Origin: a virus
Direction: 5' to 3' (one strand)
Length of the DNA: 31,465 bases
IMG/VR virus record: IMGVR_UViG_3300037342_000044
Coordinates: 1 to 31,465 of that record
Shown: positions 1,187 to 24,476 of the stretch, piece by piece
Numbering within the stretch: the stretch's first letter is position 1
How the letters are laid out: every line of letters starts with the position of its first letter
The notes under the pieces: generated by a model
What the model was told of the DNA's origin: nothing
The model's input: only the letters and a program-made list of their open reading frames with translations
Databases searched by the model: none
Made by a program: the position numbers and the translations under genes

Positions 1187-2923
1187 CTAGGCTACCCCAC
1201 TGTTGGATGTGGAAGTGGAGTCGGGGCCTGCGATCTGAGCGGAGTTCGTCGGTGGGGTCTGCACGGGCTGCGTGCTGGCCGTCACCTGATTCGACGGGGC
1301 TTGGCCACTGATCAGCGCGGGGGGTGCGCCGTACGTGAGCTGTTGGGCGCTCGTGTTGGCGAGGAGGAACGTGGCCCGAACCGTGAATGTGAAGTTGTAC
1401 TCCAGCGTGTAGGGCGCGGTCTCTGTCTCACTCAGATTGAAGTCATCGAAGGAACCGACGTAGAGGATGTTGTCGTAGTAAATGTAGATCGACCCGACGA
1501 CGGATAGGTTCTTCTTCTTCGAGGACTTCGGCTCAATGAAGTCGGAGAGCCACACGCCTCCGTTGCTCTTGTAGAGGAGCCACAGGGACAGGAAGTTCTG
1601 GTAGGACGCCGAGTACTGGCGCGCGGTGCGGGTGATCCCAGGGCCCGCACCCACCCCCGTGCTGCCCGCGCTCCCGCCACCCGTTGCATCGATCGAGTAG
1701 AAGGCAGCCACCTTCCCACTCGCCTCGATCTTGTCGAGCTGCTCCCCCCATTGCTCGACGATCGGTCCGCTGCGGCTCCACTCCCCATCGGAGATGATCT
1801 TCTCCGCCGCAAGCTTGAAGCTCTGGGGGTTTACCAGCATCTTCAGTGGCGGCGTGTTCTGCATCTGCTGGATTGCCGCCAGCGTGTTGTTGATCTCGGA
1901 CTGCTGCGCCGCGAGGTACTGAAGGCCAAGGTCCGTCTGATCCAAGCTAGTGTTGGCCGTACCCGCGATGTTCGACTGGGCTGAGCTTGCGTTGGGGGAC
2001 CCGGTGCCCTGCCAGTTGTTTGTAGGGTTCGACCCATCCCCCGTGATGCTCGTCTGCGTTGGGGGATCATTCACGTGATTTGAGTGGATGTTGTACTGGT
2101 ATGTCTGATCCTCGGGGGTTTGGAACAGGTTCGTCTCGTTGGCCCGAATGGTCACGAGTTGCGGAACCGTCTGACCGTTCACCCCAGTTACGGCGGACGT
2201 GGGCCACTGCGCCGCTGCCCCGTCGTAGTCCGGGGGGTTGGCGTTGAGCGACTGAATGATCCCAGCCCCGTACTTGGAAAACCCTGAGGGGCCCGTGCTG
2301 TAGGCGTACGAAACAAGAGCGTCGTACTGGTTCTGCGTCAGGGGGCCGCTGACGTTGTTGTTGACGGTATTCTGCGCCCACTGGCTGTCCTTCGCGAGGA
2401 GCGCCTGGGCCTGGTCCTGCGTGATCCCGTTGGGGAAGGACTCCCCCGGCTGAATCACGTGCCCGTACCCGATGGTCTGGATACCGGCCTGCCCTTCGGC
2501 AGTCGTCGCCGTGTACGCATTGGGAACGAACCCCTCGTGGGCGGCAATGAATGCGACCCCGTTCGCAGACAGTGAAGTCGCACCAGCACCACTAGGACCC
2601 GGGATCTGGCTCTGGTTCGTATTGACCCCCGCGTAGGGTGGGCCAACGGGCGCAATCGTAGCCGCTCGGCTTAGCAGCCTGCCCGTGACGTTGGACGATG
2701 GGGGTAGGATCCCGATCGCCATGATCAAAGTCTGCTGGTTGCTCTTCGGCTGTACTGCCGTGATCGGGACGAACTGCCCATCCAGCTCGTCCGATTGGGT
2801 CGTAAGCGAGGAGTAGAACGTCAGCAGGTCGTAGACGGCAGGTTCGTAGTAACCCGCAGACCCCAAGACTTGTTGGTAGAAGGGACTCGTCGGGCTGGGG
2901 GTCGGTCCACCTTGCTGCGGCAT
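1187..2923 (-). CDS. Baseplate protein with internal GH24-type lysozyme domain
   Basis: 578 residues. An internal lysozyme domain covers about residues 118-265: HEG with Glu130, then TIGYGH at 150-155, the hallmarks of T4-type (GH24) muramidases, which cut peptidoglycan so that the tail tip can cross the wall. The Asp expected nine residues after the Glu (T4 D20) is Ala139 here, so activity is uncertain. Residues about 360-520 form a second domain (VNPQSF, VEQWGEQL, ending FTFTV) that is clearly related to the protein encoded just upstream. The tail from 525 is Ser/Thr/Gln-rich and disordered. ATG at 2923 follows the good ribosome site AAGGAAG and sits three bases after the upstream stop. Part of the tape measure-baseplate operon; likely a tail-tip component. 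Confidence 0.82.
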   Translation of the reverse strand: MPQQGGPTPSPTSPFYQQVLGSAGYYEPAVYDLLTFYSSLTTQSDELDGQFVPITAVQPKSNQQTLIMAIGILPPSSNVTGRLLSRAATIAPVGPPYAGVNTNQSQIPGPSGAGATSLSANGVAFIAAHEGFVPNAYTATTAEGQAGIQTIGYGHVIQPGESFPNGITQDQAQALLAKDSQWAQNTVNNNVSGPLTQNQYDALVSYAYSTGPSGFSKYGAGIIQSLNANPPDYDGAAAQWPTSAVTGVNGQTVPQLVTIRANETNLFQTPEDQTYQYNIHSNHVNDPPTQTSITGDGSNPTNNWQGTGSPNASSAQSNIAGTANTSLDQTDLGLQYLAAQQSEINNTLAAIQQMQNTPPLKMLVNPQSFKLAAEKIISDGEWSRSGPIVEQWGEQLDKIEASGKVAAFYSIDATGGGSAGSTGVGAGPGITRTARQYSASYQNFLSLWLLYKSNGGVWLSDFIEPKSSKKKNLSVVGSIYIYYDNILYVGSFDDFNLSETETAPYTLEYNFTFTVRATFLLANTSAQQLTYGAPPALISGQAPSNQVTASTQPVQTPPTNSAQIAGPDSTSTSNSGVA

Positions 2924-12718: not shown

Positions 12719-13288
12719 CTACCCGATGATCGGGGGACAAGGTGGGGGGCCTCTTCCTGGGGGGCACCCCGGAGCGCATTGCGGTTGCGGCGGCTGAGGG
12801 ACGTTGGGGAAGATCCGGATCTGGCGCGGCCGGAAGGCCCCGTTGTTGGGCATGATGAGCTGCAAGTCTGGAGGCAAAGAGCGCTGATCGGCCTTGCAGA
12901 CACGGGCCGCGATCTCCTGCCACATGAGCCGGGGGACCGGAAGCTCGTCGGCCTCCCACTCTTCCACCGTCACCAGGGGCACGTTGAGAAGGGCGGCGAC
13001 ATCGCTCTGCGAGAGCCCGATGGCTGCGCGCTCGAAGGCGAAGATGTCCCCCGAGATGAGCCCCCACTGGCAAAGCGTTGAGGCTGCCCGGAGGTTCGCG
13101 AGCTGAATCGCTGCCGGCTGGAAGATCGGGCCCCAGCTCTGAAGAAGCCCCGCCATCGCGGCCTGAAACGTGATCCCCGTACTCCCGACCTGGATAACGT
13201 AGTCGAAGAGCCCGACCTTCCCGATTGCCTGGGGCGAGTCTGCCTCAAGGACAACGATCGGGAAGTCGAAGTCGGACTCGCTGGGCAT
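12719..13288 (-). CDS. Protein with helix-turn-helix (XRE-like) domain
   Basis: 189 residues, ATG at 13288, three bases past the upstream stop. Residues 82-125 read FERAAIGLSQSDVAALLNV then TVEEWEADELPVP: a five-helix XRE/Cro-like DNA-binding domain with the typical 'GLSQxDVA' second helix and 'TVxxWE' recognition part. The N-terminal 80 residues are not recognised. The C-terminus is Pro/Cys/Gly-rich (PQCAPGCPPGRGPPPCPP), with three Cys that could bind metal. Such domains occur in repressors, but also in phage morphogenesis proteins, where they serve protein contacts. Position between sheath and tube genes leaves both a late regulator and a structural role open. Confidence 0.65.
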   Translation of the reverse strand: MPSESDFDFPIVVLEADSPQAIGKVGLFDYVIQVGSTGITFQAAMAGLLQSWGPIFQPAAIQLANLRAASTLCQWGLISGDIFAFERAAIGLSQSDVAALLNVPLVTVEEWEADELPVPRLMWQEIAARVCKADQRSLPPDLQLIMPNNGAFRPRQIRIFPNVPQPPQPQCAPGCPPGRGPPPCPPIIG

Positions 13289-18113: not shown

Positions 18114-18557
18114 TCAGCCGCTTTTTCCGGACTCCCGGCTTGCTCTGACGGTCTCGATGGCGTGTTTCGCGAGCTTTCGCCTCGCATCACGGCCTACGGG
18201 CGTCATCGGCTCGTAGCCGATGCCCTCCTTTTCCGTGTGACGGATGAGCGCATGGGTGCCTCCTTGCTCCCGCGCCTGGGCCTTCACCTCGTCCCGAGCA
18301 CGCATCACAGCCCATCGTTCCTCGGCGCTGCGCCCCACAACCTTGTCCGCGGTGGGGTAGTCGTGGTCGTGAACACCTGAGTTGGCTATCGGAGCGCCCT
18401 CTGCCTTCTGGAACTGAAAGGCAAAACCCTCCCCATCAAGGACGCGAGGTGCTTGCTCCTTGCAGGAGGGGCACTCGAACCCGAGGTAGTTGTTCATCTT
18501 GAGGGTGCGCGTGAAGCGCACGTTGCACGGAGGGCACTCGAAGACGTACTGAGGCAT
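18114..18557 (-). CDS. FmdB-type zinc-ribbon protein
   Basis: 147 residues, ATG at 18557 with GGAG seven bases upstream. It opens MPQYVFECPPCNVRFTRTL and has a second pair at FECPSC: Cys8, Cys11, Cys29, Cys32, a CX2C-X17-CX2C zinc ribbon as in the FmdB family of putative regulators. The remainder is charged and helical (VHDHDYPTADKVVGRSAEERW, then a basic C-terminal helix). Similar small proteins occur in large phages without an assigned role. Location immediately before the sheath leader makes a late transcription or RNA-binding role attractive, but a structural zinc protein is equally possible. Confidence 0.7.
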   Translation of the reverse strand: MPQYVFECPPCNVRFTRTLKMNNYLGFECPSCKEQAPRVLDGEGFAFQFQKAEGAPIANSGVHDHDYPTADKVVGRSAEERWAVMRARDEVKAQAREQGGTHALIRHTEKEGIGYEPMTPVGRDARRKLAKHAIETVRASRESGKSG

Positions 18558-18587: not shown

Positions 18588-19793
18588 TCATATGATCCTC
18601 TCGTAGTCGTTGTTGCGGCTCGTAATGATGGGCACCGTCTGGAAGAAGAGGTTGTTAGCTGGCCCCGGCTGCACGGGGGAAATCCCAGCGACAACTCCTG
18701 CAAGACCCCCAGGACTCCCGTTGGGGCCCCCACCGCCACGCGGACCGAAGCGGCTGATCGTGAGAGGCAGGGGCAGGTGGATCTCCCAATCCGATTGGAT
18801 CTCGATGTTGAGAGACGCGACGTAGTAGTTCAGGTTGGCTGCCTCGTCGTAGGGGACCTCCGACTCGCCCCCCATCGAGATGTTGGTGATCTCGATCCCC
18901 TCGATCGAAAGGATGGGCCTCTTCTCGCCCCAGAGGTACATCGTGACGAGGTCAGCGATCTCCTCCATCTGGTTCGTGTCCTGGGACATGACGTCGACAT
19001 CGAATGTCGTGTCAAACCTGCCGCCGTAAGCGTTCGCCGCTTCAACGCGATCTGGGTAGACGACGACAGCCACCTTGTCGCCGACCTTGGCCCTCTTACC
19101 GAAGGCGAGGACGACCCCGTGGAGCGTTGTGAAGTCGGCTGTGTTCCAAACGAACTTGAAGGGTCCCCTCGTGGGGATGGGGTAGCGGTAGTCCGCCGAG
19201 ACGTACGTGTCGCCGCCGAACGTGGAGAGAAAGCGGATCTCCCCGTTCGTGTAGTTGAGTGTGTAGTCAACCCCCTCAACGAGCAGGTAGTTGTGGTTCT
19301 GCCATAGGCGCACGGTTCCCTTGACGGGCGGGTGCCGAAGCCCCGCCTCGCGCTCGATGCCGGTGAGGAAGTGGAGGACGGGCTCGTCAGTGATCGTGAG
19401 GAGAGGGTCGATGCAGAAGACCCCCTCATCCTGCGCGTGCTCAGGCACCTTCAGGATCTCGATGTAGTAGATGCCGGCAGGCGTCGGCATCTTCCCTTCG
19501 TTCTCACGGATGCAGTTCAGATCCTCACGGACCCACTCCAACGGGTAGACAGGGTGCTTGAGGTACGCGAGCATGACGTAGCTCTGTACTGTCCCCAAGA
19601 AGTTATCGGCCGAGAGCGAGACCTTGTTCGCCGTCGAGTTCTTGATGACGATACCGAACTGGGGACGCTCATCGAAGGCGAACTTGTTCTGGATGAAGGG
19701 CACGACCTTCTCGTACACGGGGTGCCGCGAGAAGCTGTCTTGCATCTCCAGGATCAAGCGCCTCTTGAGGGCCTGCGTGAGGTAGTAGTACAA
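18588..19793 (-). CDS. Conserved virion protein upstream of sheath (probable neck or tail completion)
   Basis: 401 residues if the TTG at 19793 is the start, giving YYYLTQALKRRLILEMQDSF at the N-terminus. The frame stays open to an ATG at 19916, but that extension lies inside the 125-residue gene and is Arg/Ser-rich with shadow-like composition, so it is rejected; an ATG at about 19748 is the other choice. The body is mixed alpha/beta (NKFAFDERPQFGIVIKNST, GVDYTLNYTNGEIRF, MYLWGEKRPILSIEGIEI), with a Gly/Pro-rich tail (GPRGGGGPNGSPGG). The pattern is familiar from proteins encoded next to the sheath in large myophages; a connector, neck or tail-terminator role is inferred from position. Confidence 0.68.
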   Translation of the reverse strand: MYYYLTQALKRRLILEMQDSFSRHPVYEKVVPFIQNKFAFDERPQFGIVIKNSTANKVSLSADNFLGTVQSYVMLAYLKHPVYPLEWVREDLNCIRENEGKMPTPAGIYYIEILKVPEHAQDEGVFCIDPLLTITDEPVLHFLTGIEREAGLRHPPVKGTVRLWQNHNYLLVEGVDYTLNYTNGEIRFLSTFGGDTYVSADYRYPIPTRGPFKFVWNTADFTTLHGVVLAFGKRAKVGDKVAVVVYPDRVEAANAYGGRFDTTFDVDVMSQDTNQMEEIADLVTMYLWGEKRPILSIEGIEITNISMGGESEVPYDEAANLNYYVASLNIEIQSDWEIHLPLPLTISRFGPRGGGGPNGSPGGLAGVVAGISPVQPGPANNLFFQTVPIITSRNNDYERII

Positions 19794-20180: not shown

Positions 20181-21194
20181 CTAGGTGCTGTCCTCCTCGG
20201 ACGCGAGGACAAGAAGACCCTCAGCCACGGCCGTCATCGGATCCTTCGCCGGGCGGATGTCGCTGATCTGGATCGGGAAGCCGCGCTTTTGCATGGCCTC
20301 GAACTCCTCGCGGAAGACGTCGAGAAAGCCACCCGCTTTCGACGTGCCCCCGGAGACCACGAAGGGAATCGGCTCGGGCAGATCGAGCGACGTCTGAACC
20401 TTCCGGAACTGGATGGCGATGTTCTCCAGGCAGTACTTGATGAGGCTCCTGATGTAGAGCGCGATGGCCTCGGCGTCACGGTTGCCCTTCTCGGGGTTCG
20501 CGATGTTGACGCCCTTCTCCTTGATGGCGCACATGCGAGCGTTCGTGGACCCCATCGCCTTGGCGGCGTGGCTGTCGATCCAGTCCCCCCCACGGGCGAC
20601 AGCGAACTCCAGTCCGCACACCGTCTGGTAGGCCAGCGCGACGTTGCACATGCCCGACCCGAAGGAGACGGAGAGCCCGGAGAAGTTTTCCTTCGAGCAC
20701 TGCGAGTAGATGATGGCCATCGCCTCGTTGGCGGGGTGTGCCGTGTACCCGTGCTCGTTGACGATCTTCTTGAAGACCTCGGTGTGGTAGATGACGTCCT
20801 GATCGAGATCGTCGATCGGGGCCGCGGGCACGCTGTAGTAGCAATGCTCCCCCGCCTTCACGGGCTCCCCCAAGACGTGCTTGATGAGGAGGCTGAGGAT
20901 CTGCTGGGCCTCGATCTCGCCCGCGGAGATGACGCCGCGCGAGAGGGGACGCCGAAGCTCCCGCTTGAAGAGGTTCACCATGTTGAGGGCCGAGTCCCCG
21001 ATCACGATGAGGCGCCCGTCCTTCTCCACGTAGTCAACCTTCGAGAGCCGCAGCGTCTTCTTGGCCTCCAGGTCGAGGTCGATGAAGGCGTCCCGCATGC
21101 GTACGGTCTGAATCTTCCCCTCAGCGTTCATGCGGGCGCTGACGATGTTCATGGTCCCGATGTCGAGACCCACGGCGGGCTTGAAGTCACTCAT
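20181..21194 (-). CDS. Actin-like ATPase (MreB/ParM/FtsA superfamily)
   Basis: 337 residues, ATG at 21194 after GAGGA. All parts of the actin/Hsp70 ATPase fold can be placed: phosphate-1 loop VGLDIGTMNIVSA (8-20), connect-1 helix AHPANEAMAIIYS (152-164), phosphate-2 loop GLSVSFGSGMCNVAL (173-187), a GGDWID segment (202-207) and the adenosine motif FVVSGGTSKAGGF (278-290). Length fits the MreB/ParM class. In phosphate-2 the usual Asp (DxGGGT) is Ser177 and the later Asp is Asn184, so nucleotide hydrolysis may be slow or changed. Bacterial relatives polymerise into filaments that move DNA or shape cells. A structural-operon location next to Dps-like and neck genes suggests action late in infection, for example in virion positioning or assembly; that is inference. 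Confidence 0.87.
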   Translation of the reverse strand: MSDFKPAVGLDIGTMNIVSARMNAEGKIQTVRMRDAFIDLDLEAKKTLRLSKVDYVEKDGRLIVIGDSALNMVNLFKRELRRPLSRGVISAGEIEAQQILSLLIKHVLGEPVKAGEHCYYSVPAAPIDDLDQDVIYHTEVFKKIVNEHGYTAHPANEAMAIIYSQCSKENFSGLSVSFGSGMCNVALAYQTVCGLEFAVARGGDWIDSHAAKAMGSTNARMCAIKEKGVNIANPEKGNRDAEAIALYIRSLIKYCLENIAIQFRKVQTSLDLPEPIPFVVSGGTSKAGGFLDVFREEFEAMQKRGFPIQISDIRPAKDPMTAVAEGLLVLASEEDST

Positions 21195-21209
21195 CTTGTC
21201 CTCATCTCT

Positions 21210-21229
21210 GGGGCCGCCGAGGAGACCCC
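21210..21229 (-). promoter_or_regulatory. Inverted repeat in the leader of the actin-like gene
   Basis: On the minus strand GGGGTC...GGCCCC can form a 6-bp stem (one G-U pair) with an 8-base loop, between the Dps-like stop and the ribosome site of the actin-like gene. No T-tract follows, so an intrinsic terminator is unlikely; it may be a leader hairpin or chance in GC-rich DNA. Confidence 0.25.
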
Positions 21230-21233
21230 GTTT

Positions 21234-21968
21234 TCATCTGGATCGGTCGTAGCTGACCTTGGTCTGGACTCGTTGCCGGAGCAGGTAGACGAAAGACTCG
21301 TGCTCGTCGGCGATCCCCTGAAGGAGGTTGTCCGTGCCCTTCGACAGGACCCCCTGCGACTGGAGCGCGCTGTACGCCATCCCGATGAAGGACAGCACGT
21401 AGACCTCCGTGAGGAAGCTCACGAGCGCCTGCTGGTCGGCCTCAGGGTCGGCCTGGATGTCCCCCGCGAAGAACTTCACGAGGACCGCCATCTGGTTCGA
21501 CTGGATGACAGGGTGCACGAGGACCCTGTGTCCCGAGCCCACCGCGCGCTCAGCCAGTTGGTCGATCATCCCGAGCGACTGCTCGTAGAGGTGATCGTAC
21601 AGCTTGTGGTCCGAGTAGAAGGTGCTCCCCCGCGTCTGCCAGTGGTTCGACTGGTGAACGAACGCCGCCGCTCGAAGAACGACGAGGAGCGCCGCAAGCT
21701 CCGCAAGGACGATCTTCTGGTAGTCTCCCACCAGGGTCAGGAAGATTTGCGCCGCAGGGCTCGCGTTGGCGACCTTGGTGACGTACTCCCGGATGGCGGC
21801 TTTCGTCGCGCGCCCAAGCTTGACCTTCGCCTCCGGGAGGTACGGAGGCCCCATCGTCATATGGTCGTACGTCGAGGGATCGTGCCAGAGGGCGTAGATC
21901 GACTCGGCATGGAGGCCCGTGTATGGGTCCGTGACAGGGAGTTCCTCAGCCGAGCGCTCGTTGGCCAT
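21234..21968 (-). CDS. Dps/ferritin-like protein
   Basis: 244 residues, ATG at 21968. Residues 105-146 read HQSNHWQTRG, then an Asp-His pair, then IDQLAERAVGSG, the Dps signature. The four ferroxidase ligands of Dps are all present at canonical spacing: His109, His121 (+12), Asp136 (+15), Glu140 (+4). The last helix (ADEHESFVYLLRQR, 220-233) resembles the final Dps helix. A N-terminal extension of about 75 residues and a longer middle section make it bigger than usual Dps (about 160-180). Dps proteins form 12-subunit shells that oxidise and store iron and bind DNA, protecting it from peroxide. Here the gene lies in the neck/tail operon directly upstream of the actin-like gene. Virion incorporation or genome protection is inference. 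Confidence 0.8.
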   Translation of the reverse strand: MANERSAEELPVTDPYTGLHAESIYALWHDPSTYDHMTMGPPYLPEAKVKLGRATKAAIREYVTKVANASPAAQIFLTLVGDYQKIVLAELAALLVVLRAAAFVHQSNHWQTRGSTFYSDHKLYDHLYEQSLGMIDQLAERAVGSGHRVLVHPVIQSNQMAVLVKFFAGDIQADPEADQQALVSFLTEVYVLSFIGMAYSALQSQGVLSKGTDNLLQGIADEHESFVYLLRQRVQTKVSYDRSR

Positions 21969-21979
21969 CCTACAGGATG
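21966..21979 (-). promoter_or_regulatory. Hairpin including the start codon of the Dps-like gene
   Basis: On the minus strand CATCC-TGTA-GGATG is a perfect 5-bp inverted repeat whose 3' arm ends with the ATG start. The nearest ribosome site, GAGGCG, lies just before the 5' arm. If folded in mRNA it would hide the start codon, suggesting low or conditional translation; chance is possible for a 5-bp stem. Confidence 0.3.
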
Positions 21980-21994
21980 CGCCTCGATAGAACT

Positions 21995-22576
21995 TTAACC
22001 GTTGCCGCCTTTACGCATCTGCCGAAGCTTCGCGGTCGCATCGGAAACTGAACCCGAATCCGCCTCTTGGGACACGCGGTCGATACGCACCTCAGCGTCC
22101 TTGGGCGCAATCTCACCAGGAATGAACTGGGGTGCGCTGCCGTCCGCCACGTCGCTACATTGAACCGGCGTTTGTTGACCGGAACCCATCCCGACCATCC
22201 CGAAAGGGGCCTTCACGCTCCCGATCGCCTTCATGATCGCATCGAACTGGTCGCGCTGCGCCAGGGCCGCCCCCAAGGATGCCCGGAGCTGCGTGACCTC
22301 TTCTTCGAGTAGCTTGTTGCGCGCCTCCAAGTGACGGTTGCGCTCTTGAAGCAGGTCGTCTCGCACATGCCCAGCGGGCGCCGTATGTACGGGCGGGGGC
22401 AGATCGGGGAGCTTGAAAACACACTTCTGGCCGATGGCCTTGTAGAGATCCCGCGATCGGGCCGCCTTGTCGGCCGGAATGACTACCTCGCGCCCGTGGG
22501 GGACGTCCATAGCGATGTCTTCGATGACGTGCGTGGGCGTCACCAAGCCGAAGACTCGGACGTCTCCCGTGCTCAC
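21995..22576 (-). CDS. Hypothetical protein with beta N-terminus and coiled coil
   Basis: 193 residues, GTG start at 22576 overlapping the upstream stop as GTGA, with GGGAGG six bases upstream. Residues 5-60 (VFGLVTPTHVIEDIAMDVPH, then VVIPADKAARSRDLYKAI) match a pattern seen in small proteins of many tailed phages: a strand pair followed by an 'IPxxKAxxSxDL' helix. Residues 72-118 are a coiled coil (ERNRHLEARNKLLEEEVTQL). The rest is Gly/Ser/Gln-rich and flexible. The function is unknown; a minor virion component fits the location. Confidence 0.6.
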   Translation of the reverse strand: MSTGDVRVFGLVTPTHVIEDIAMDVPHGREVVIPADKAARSRDLYKAIGQKCVFKLPDLPPPVHTAPAGHVRDDLLQERNRHLEARNKLLEEEVTQLRASLGAALAQRDQFDAIMKAIGSVKAPFGMVGMGSGQQTPVQCSDVADGSAPQFIPGEIAPKDAEVRIDRVSQEADSGSVSDATAKLRQMRKGGNG

Positions 22577-23121
22577 CGGCGCCTCCCGATCTGCTTCATC
22601 CGACCACCGGCCATGCTCGAACGGAAGTTCTGCATGACGTCCTTCAGGAGGTACTCACGGATGTGCTTGCGCATCTCCTCCTTGGCCTTCTCGACGTAGT
22701 TCTGGGGCGTACGTCCAGGGTGCCACCAGCCAGGCTTCGCCCCGAGGCTGCTCTGGACCATCGACCTAGGTGTCGCGTTGCGGAAAATGAGCCGACCGTC
22801 ATCGAGCACGATCGGGATGGGGCGTCGCGCCTTGAGGAGCCAGCGCATCTGCACAGGATGCTGGCCCTCAACCAAGGGGCGGTAGGCGGGGTGCTTCGCA
22901 ACGACCTGCAAGCTCGAAGGCTTCAGACGGATCGACACCGCCCGCGCGAGCGCAGCCTTGGCCTGGGGGGAAAAGGTCGTCTGAAGCAAGTTGGCCTTGA
23001 GGCGCCGTAGAAGGTGCTGCTTGCTGCGCTGAAGTACCTTGTCGACGGGGATGCGAGCCCCTGCCCGCCCGGGAGGCAGGAGAGGCTTCATGTAGACGCG
23101 GACGCCGATGTACTCCTTCAT
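22573..23121 (-). CDS. Hypothetical basic protein, possible neck / tail completion protein
   Basis: 182 residues, ATG at 23121 overlapping the upstream stop by one base. It is strongly basic (many Arg/Lys: SKQHLLRRLKANLLQ, IGRRR at the end). The C-terminal part has WWHPGRTPQNYVEKAKEEM followed by a long helix, reminiscent of the 'HPG...F...A' end of HK97 gp10-like tail completion proteins, while the middle (RRPIPIVLDDGRLIFRNATP) is beta. The resemblance is weak. Its place upstream of sheath and between connector-like genes fits a head-tail joining component. Confidence 0.5.
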   Translation of the reverse strand: MKEYIGVRVYMKPLLPPGRAGARIPVDKVLQRSKQHLLRRLKANLLQTTFSPQAKAALARAVSIRLKPSSLQVVAKHPAYRPLVEGQHPVQMRWLLKARRPIPIVLDDGRLIFRNATPRSMVQSSLGAKPGWWHPGRTPQNYVEKAKEEMRKHIREYLLKDVMQNFRSSMAGGRMKQIGRRR

Positions 23122-24476
23122 CAGTACTCGATGTTCTCCCAGACTGGCGTACGACCTCGGAGCTGCTGCTCGACCGGGACATCCGGCTTGTTCGTGACCC
23201 TGGACTCCGCCTCCAGCTCAGGACCCGTGGGCTTGAGCTGGATGGCCACAAACTTCACGGGGTTCGTCACCGGAACGCGGCAGCGGATGTCCTTCTCGTC
23301 GATGTGATTGATCGTGAAGTGCTGCTGCATGACGTTGCCACGGTTGCTCGGCATGCGCACACCCCCAAGAGAGTAGCGATCCCCGTTGAGCTTCACGAGG
23401 AAGTCCCGCATCGACAGGAGAGGCGAGGGGCCCGTGAAGACCTCGTAGGTCTGCTCCACGGTGCGACCGTACTCCGTCTGGTTGATCTTGTAGTCGGCAT
23501 CGGCGGGCGAGATGATGCAGTCGTAGGGTCCGTCGTAGCCTCCCACGATGCCGGTCCCGAAGCAGGTCGGGTCATCGTTGATCGGCTGCTTGTGGTACCC
23601 GTCGGGGATGCAGGGGCATGGAAGGCCCACGTTCTTGCGAAGGAAGACCTTCACGCGCTCGCCCCCCTGCTCCAGGATCCAGCGGTTGCGGCGCACGGCC
23701 TCGCGCCACATATAGTCGAGCTTCTCGATCTCCATCGTGCTCGTCGCCGTGGCGTGCTCGATGGGGGTCTCCACCAAGTCTTGCGGCTGACAGAGCGACA
23801 AGTCCTTGTCGATGGGGATGCCGACGCACGTTGCCCGGTAGTGCATGCGCTGGCCGAGGTCCGTCCGAATGAGCTGCCGGGTGTAGCGGTACGTACAGAT
23901 GACGGTGCTCTGCGGCTGAGGGACGACCGAGGGGTCCCACGCCTGCTTCTCCACGTTCACGTAGGTGAAAGGATCGATCTCGACCTCACCCGTGTTCCCC
24001 CAGACGTTGAGAACCTTCGCTTCCTGGCCGTCGATGAAGACGCGGATGTCGTCCCCTGTGTCGGCCGGGATCTGCTGCGAGCCCTCCTTCACGATGGGGA
24101 AGTTGCGCGTCTTGAAGACGTAACGCGGTCCCCGATCCCCAACCGCCGAACAGACCCCGAACAGCTCGAACTGCCCGGTCACGTTCTCGTGAACGAGTTC
24201 GTTCTCCGTGCGGTCCCGCCAGTAGCGAGCGCCCACGAGCAAGTCGGTCACCCTCTCGAAGGGTCCGTACTCACTGTCAGGGCTGCGATAGAGGTTGACC
24301 CCCAAGATGTTGAAGCGGCTGTTCACCGCCAGCACCGTGGGATCGTCCCAAGTGAGATCGATGACACCGCGTTCGTACCCGCTCGTCATGAACAGGTTGA
24401 GCGGGGGAGCTGGCCAAGGAGCCTTGGTCAGCTCCAGCTCGCCGGGCGTGCGATCCCTTTGACTAGCGTACGGCAC
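23121..24476 (-). CDS. Conserved virion structural protein with N-terminal FN3-like domain and Cys cluster
   Basis: 451 residues, GTG start at 24476 with GGGAGGG six bases upstream. Residues 22-110 (VIDLTWDDPTVLAVNSRFNI, GVNLYRSPDSEYGPFERV) read as a fibronectin III-like domain. The middle has a beta segment with DDIRVFIDGQEAKVLNVWG. Residues 260-325 (NRWILEQGGERVKVFLRKN, then Cys287, Cys289, Cys305, GTGIVGGYDGPYDC) form a conserved Cys-containing block that I know from structural proteins of large myophages, probably a metal-binding fold. The C-terminus is charged. A hairpin repeat lies 19 bases before the start codon. Neck or connector role is inferred. Confidence 0.65.
   Translation of the reverse strand: MPYASQRDRTPGELELTKAPWPAPPLNLFMTSGYERGVIDLTWDDPTVLAVNSRFNILGVNLYRSPDSEYGPFERVTDLLVGARYWRDRTENELVHENVTGQFELFGVCSAVGDRGPRYVFKTRNFPIVKEGSQQIPADTGDDIRVFIDGQEAKVLNVWGNTGEVEIDPFTYVNVEKQAWDPSVVPQPQSTVICTYRYTRQLIRTDLGQRMHYRATCVGIPIDKDLSLCQPQDLVETPIEHATATSTMEIEKLDYMWREAVRRNRWILEQGGERVKVFLRKNVGLPCPCIPDGYHKQPINDDPTCFGTGIVGGYDGPYDCIISPADADYKINQTEYGRTVEQTYEVFTGPSPLLSMRDFLVKLNGDRYSLGGVRMPSNRGNVMQQHFTINHIDEKDIRCRVPVTNPVKFVAIQLKPTGPELEAESRVTNKPDVPVEQQLRGRTPVWENIEY

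Follow-up and report, generated by a model that had tools for sequence, protein, structure and literature searches.

Dps proteins oxidize Fe(II) and store ferric iron, and their ferroxidase site lies between two subunits. Not all of them bind DNA; the DNA-binding E. coli type has a basic N-terminal tail. Phage Dps genes are already known (PMC8008677, PMC6669764). In addition, gp217 of phage Sajous1, a ferritin according to Phyre2 (confidence 96.7), was detected in CsCl-purified virions (PMC10892097). For the tail genes, our reference is the module of Tunturi_5, an isolated 309-kb myovirus of Tunturiibacter (PMC11924767).

We have analyzed a stretch of viral DNA of 31,465 nts (the window), which encodes a Dps-like protein within a tail cassette (Table 1). 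The protein has in common with cellular Dps/NapA proteins (MsDps2, 8hwz; Helicobacter NapA, 1ji4; Nostoc Dps4, 5hjh) the four-helix bundle, the ligand pattern, and the HW and D-x3-E motifs. On the other hand, it is about 18–20% identical to them, it has an 82-residue N-terminal extension with a conserved motif, it lacks a Lys-rich DNA-binding tail, and it is placed in a phage tail cassette. The members of phrog_3636 and other phage Dps proteins (those of Salmonella phage 7-11, the Aeromonas LAh phages and Lactobacillus phages) have the same core. The tblastn matches to the Dps of isolated phages start at residue 105–109, with no N-terminal motif seen, and they do not show adjacency to volactin. 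An ORF of 569 aa on the opposite strand (20289–21998) is a high-GC shadow; the homologues and the conserved cassette favor the minus strand.

Table 1. Coordinates in the window of the Dps-like protein, its segments, and the surrounding cassette genes.
Feature	Position	Strand	Remarks
Gene homologous to Tunturi_5 gp322 (annotated minor tail protein)	23121..24476	(-)	4e-49
Conserved gene, provisional neck gene B	22573..23121	(-)	function by position only
Conserved gene directly upstream of Dps, provisional neck gene A	21995..22576	(-)	function by position only
Dps-like protein, 244 aa	21234..21968	(-)	fold of the Dps type; ferroxidase ligands invariant; phrog_3636 5e-10
Conserved N-terminal arm motif, residues 23–45, proposed docking motif	21834..21902	(-)	identity 0.55, no gaps, low pLDDT
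Variable linker with helices, residues 46–87	21708..21833	(-)	mean identity 0.19, 40% gaps
Four-helix-bundle core, residues 85–236	21261..21716	(-)	helices 89–110, 117–144, 177–204, 210–235
Ferroxidase segment, residues 109–140 (H109, H121, (D125), D136, E140)	21549..21644	(-)	4 ligands invariant
Volactin-family actin-like protein, next downstream	20181..21194	(-)	39 bp gap; PF25216 2.1e-70
Tail terminator homologue, probable start near 19793	18588..19793	(-)	Tunturi_5 counterpart: gp324 (annotated as tail terminator)
Zinc-ribbon protein between terminator and sheath	18114..18557	(-)	
Tail sheath, 1434 aa	13624..17928	(-)	phrog_2839 tail sheath 4e-23; Tunturi_5 gp326 1e-73

The fold was predicted with AlphaFold2 as a monomer, using an alignment of nine sequences (pLDDT 76) and then one of 55 sequences (mean pLDDT 86, with 92–99 in the core). 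The preliminary description of this DNA had proposed a Dps-like protein, and the monomer model is indeed a confident Dps four-helix bundle. The best structural match is MsDps2 (VIA Z 17.0, rmsd 2.2 over 144 residues), and the top matches are mostly Dps; Foldseek gives E-values near 1e-4, with a target TM-score of up to 0.84. All hits of a sequence search of the PDB are proteins of the Dps/NapA type or chimeras derived from these (best E-value 1.3e-6). The phage Dps-like family phrog_3636 is matched at 5.2e-10 over residues 91–232, as it is by all 55 aligned members, and phrog_858 is matched as well. The window protein stays below the curated cut-off of Pfam Ferritin (PF00210; 20.3 vs. 24.5 bits), a family matched at E up to 0.001 by 35 of the 55 homologues, and below that of the Dps equivalog NF006975 of NCBIfam (27.8 vs. 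114 bits). The top match in the BFVD library is a Dps of an uncultured phage. Further matches of the Dps-like fold there lie inside longer phage proteins (A0A6J7XDU5, A0A6J7WIS1, A0A6J7WPK9 and A0A6J5LAB8_2), annotated as prohead protease or ParB/sulfiredoxin, which suggests fusions.

The ferroxidase ligands had been listed as H109, H121, D136 and E140 with the Dps spacing 12/15/4, and both the numbering and the spacing are exact. D125 is also present, at the position of the fifth acidic Dps ligand (D67 in E. coli), so that all five positions of a Dps site are filled. The pattern H-x11-H-x14-D-x3-E arises in 0.075% of 20,000 shuffled copies of the protein. In the loci analyzed, the 95 homologous ORFs contain it 91 times, whereas the remaining ORFs, with 1.36 million residues in total, have two occurrences only.

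Scanning viral contigs with the alignment gave 138 loci that encode relatives, of which 80 were kept; once duplicates had been taken out, 71 sequences remained for a comparison of each alignment column. Nine residues never vary: the four ligands, which bears out the claim of a full ferroxidase set, together with W110, D120, E224, Y228 and R233. Position 125 is D or E in 62 sequences, M in seven and Q in two. The 12/15/4 spacing is kept in 54 of 55 aligned rows; in the exception (L001), a two-residue deletion between the histidines leaves 10/15/4. The middle of the protein drifts (27% identity). Because the four ligands are invariant and position 125 is acidic in 62 of 71 sequences, iron oxidation is, as judged from sequence comparison, very likely under selection. 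A C-terminal YDRR motif was dropped as a shared signal, being present in about 20 Dps rows only and scattered elsewhere. A recent host or prophage origin is unsupported, as one scan of genome contigs for bacterial or archaeal homologues gave a single weak match.

The DUF5856/phrog_858 proteins (T4 rI.-1 type), which include Sajous1 gp217 (1.3e-28 in our search), are matched weakly by the window protein over the ferroxidase segment; the cut-off of DUF5856 (PF19174) is not reached (26 vs. 34.6 bits, 2e-5). Sajous1 gp217 has, by eye, the arrangement H-9-H-15-D-4-E in only about 117 aa, with a different loop length, and a profile comparison with the window protein is weak (23% probability). DUF5856, named "starvation-inducible transcriptional regulator", looks like a minimal Dps-like protein with that same arrangement (as in L122:6948-7301), and is present in over 1,400 phage records, T4 included. 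We found no paper on DUF5856 in the open-licence literature.

The cassette runs in the order neck genes, Dps, volactin, tail terminator and sheath, all on the same strand. That the gene lies in a tail operon is confirmed by homology to an isolated myovirus: the cassette and the Tunturi_5 module have in common the head–tail connector, gp322, tail terminator, sheath and tube genes. Unlike the cassette, the Tunturi_5 module has no detected homologue of volactin or Dps. Looking in phage genomes for the same gene beside neck genes, as had been suggested, we find it in the same slot in 48 non-redundant cassette loci, many of them on contigs of 200–529 kb. In every one of these 48 loci with both genes, Dps comes just before volactin, in identical order and strand.

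Other genes of this region are also of interest in their own right. The tail sheath is very long, and the sheath profile matches only its last ~360 residues. A 578-aa tail-region protein (1187–2923, minus strand) has an endolysin/tail-lysozyme domain inside (phrog_7, 7e-33), and the tail operon includes a helix-turn-helix protein (HTH_31; 12719–13288, minus strand). The volactin-family gene, related to a haloarchaeal actin, is conserved in about 50 contigs; the copy in LR745208 has 57% identity, and a distant group in L015–L022 has 34–36%. Its product has a weak match to MamK (4e-3), none in PHROGs, and none in a single-sequence search of the PDB. The volactin paper does not mention phages.

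The N-terminal region had been described as an extra 75 residues or so that might dock the protein to the virion. The extension is there, with a length of about 82 residues (structural matches start at 82–85), but the proposed docking role can apply to one part of it. In cassette members, residues 23–45 follow the motif W-x-D-P-x2-[YF]-[DNE]-x4-G-P-P-Y-L-P, in which W28, D30, P31, G40, P42, L44 and P45 are nearly or fully invariant, while residues 46–87 are a variable linker. The mean pairwise identity of the gapless arm approaches that of the ferroxidase helices (0.58), and despite this conservation the block-mean pLDDT of the arm in the monomer model is 53–62. The arm (residues 1–45) has a net charge of -6 in the window protein, and is net acidic in 47 of 47 cassette sequences (mean -3.6, range -19 to -1). 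This acidity, with no Lys-rich tail, speaks against DNA shielding of the E. coli Dps type, which had also been raised. A segment that is conserved, unfolded and acidic, and that sits on a variable linker, fits a partner-binding motif.

The Dps proteins encoded outside the cassette retain the core and the ligands but have no arm motif, so the arm is not needed for a cage as such. We also looked for the motif in the other ORFs of the loci, as a shared virion-targeting signal, and found none. Run against 11 jumbo contigs, a profile of the motif has no convincing match apart from the Dps gene, and in 16 phage records other genes give trivial partial matches only; LR745208 and L010 are unmatched, and G008 and G018 have weak partial matches (E about 0.08–0.09).

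We think it probable, though well short of assured, that the protein is an active Dps-like ferroxidase, likely a cage, whose arm docks to a partner specific to the cassette, either the virion neck/tail or volactin. By analogy with solved Dps structures, it would assemble as a dodecamer with the ferroxidase sites at dimer interfaces, H109, H121 and D125 coming from one subunit, and D136 and E140 from its partner. Since the Dps site is shared between subunits, the ligands need not converge in a monomer model, and the convergence test proposed earlier is ill-posed. The cage would bind Fe(II), use H2O2 or O2 to oxidize it, and retain the resulting ferric iron in store, and in doing so may remove the reactants of Fenton chemistry late in infection. 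Each subunit would bear one flexible acidic arm, and the arms would dock the cage to a partner from the same tail cassette. A protein of the neck or tail of the virion under assembly would be the most likely partner, and the neighboring volactin filament a less likely one, because volactin-bearing relatives that lack the cassette have an armless Dps.

In its most specific form, which we put forward tentatively, this proposal describes an iron-oxidizing Dps-like cage that jumbo myoviruses of a widespread lineage carry on their virions, docked at the neck or tail by its GPPYLP arm, so that the next host would receive iron or an anti-Fenton enzyme with the particle. The presence of Sajous1 gp217 in virions is the nearest experimental hint for such a role, and it is a lead, not proof. 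The Ferrojan Horse hypothesis of iron in phage tails, discussed in PMC10892097, likewise puts an iron-handling protein on the tail, and it is a hypothesis only; Sajous1-type phages infected TonB- and FeoB-deficient Salmonella normally (PMC10892097).

Several observations count against a docked cage. Dps genes outside the cassette adjoin GroEL-like or metabolic genes, and thus Dps in this family does not need a virion. (GroEL-like chaperonin genes lie close to non-cassette Dps in several contigs: L092, L095, L102 and L003.) L010 (398 kb) has the cassette, yet the whole contig yielded no Dps, which makes the protein look dispensable. Moreover, the link between motif and cassette may come from one ancestral event, since the tree demands no more than one origin. 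Two non-cassette sequences without the motif, L103 and L080, group in the tree with the cassette members L063 and L070, a placement that would imply later loss of the motif; L103 is a long branch.

If docking is wrong, the protein could be a freely diffusing antioxidant, late only through capture in the tail operon, whose arm is a structural part of the cage. We consider this unlikely, although it deserves to be taken seriously. Elsewhere in phages, Dps genes are found away from the structural regions, with GroEL-like or replication genes nearby (PMC6669764 and the contigs here), and phage Dps genes have been read as antioxidants (PMC8008677). In addition, the model that leaves the arm unfolded is that of a single subunit only. 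The arm could pack onto another Dps subunit, which is the main alternative to partner docking and is compatible with the low pLDDT. But a free antioxidant does not account for a slot and strand kept in all the cassette loci, nor for non-cassette Dps proteins that do without the arm motif.

Alternatively, the arm could dock the cage to the neighboring volactin filament, with iron cages riding a phage actin-like cytoskeleton in the infected cell, outside the virion. The invariable adjacency of the two genes in the 48 loci is what one would expect, and four further contigs, which form a separate group and lack this tail cassette, encode Dps at about 2–4 kb from a distant volactin. However, in those four contigs several genes come in between, and their Dps has no arm motif. 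Volactin is kept in both LR745208 and L010, although neither has a Dps with the motif, and the volactin loci L015–L022 hold no Dps. In LR745208 (485 kb), the cassette has volactin with no Dps in between; its Dps, at about 480.7 kb and without the arm motif, is 143 kb away from volactin (337.4 kb). We find docking to volactin improbable. Going by the series from Tunturi_5 to LR745208 to the cassette clade, volactin would have entered the module first, and Dps later.

Finally, a structural protein that kept the ferritin fold and lost the iron chemistry would suit the location among neck and tail genes and a position 125 that is not strictly acidic, but it is very improbable given that 71 divergent sequences all keep the four main ligands, in spite of drift in the middle of the protein.

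Returning to the docked ferroxidase, the preliminary description had called the placing of the gene unusual. Dps-like genes as such are common in phages, and the usual view takes them for stray genes with an antioxidant role. On the other hand, in the open-licence papers searched we found neither a jumbo-phage tail cassette that holds Dps in a constant place next to an actin-like gene, nor the arm. Here, Dps is fixed in a tail cassette over dozens of jumbo-phage contigs, with strict ligands and an arm absent from other phage Dps. Docking to the virion, if true, would provide a specific and testable case of iron chemistry on phage particles; docking to volactin, if true, would connect a viral actin-like protein with an iron cage. 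For testing either one, the arm is a ready handle.
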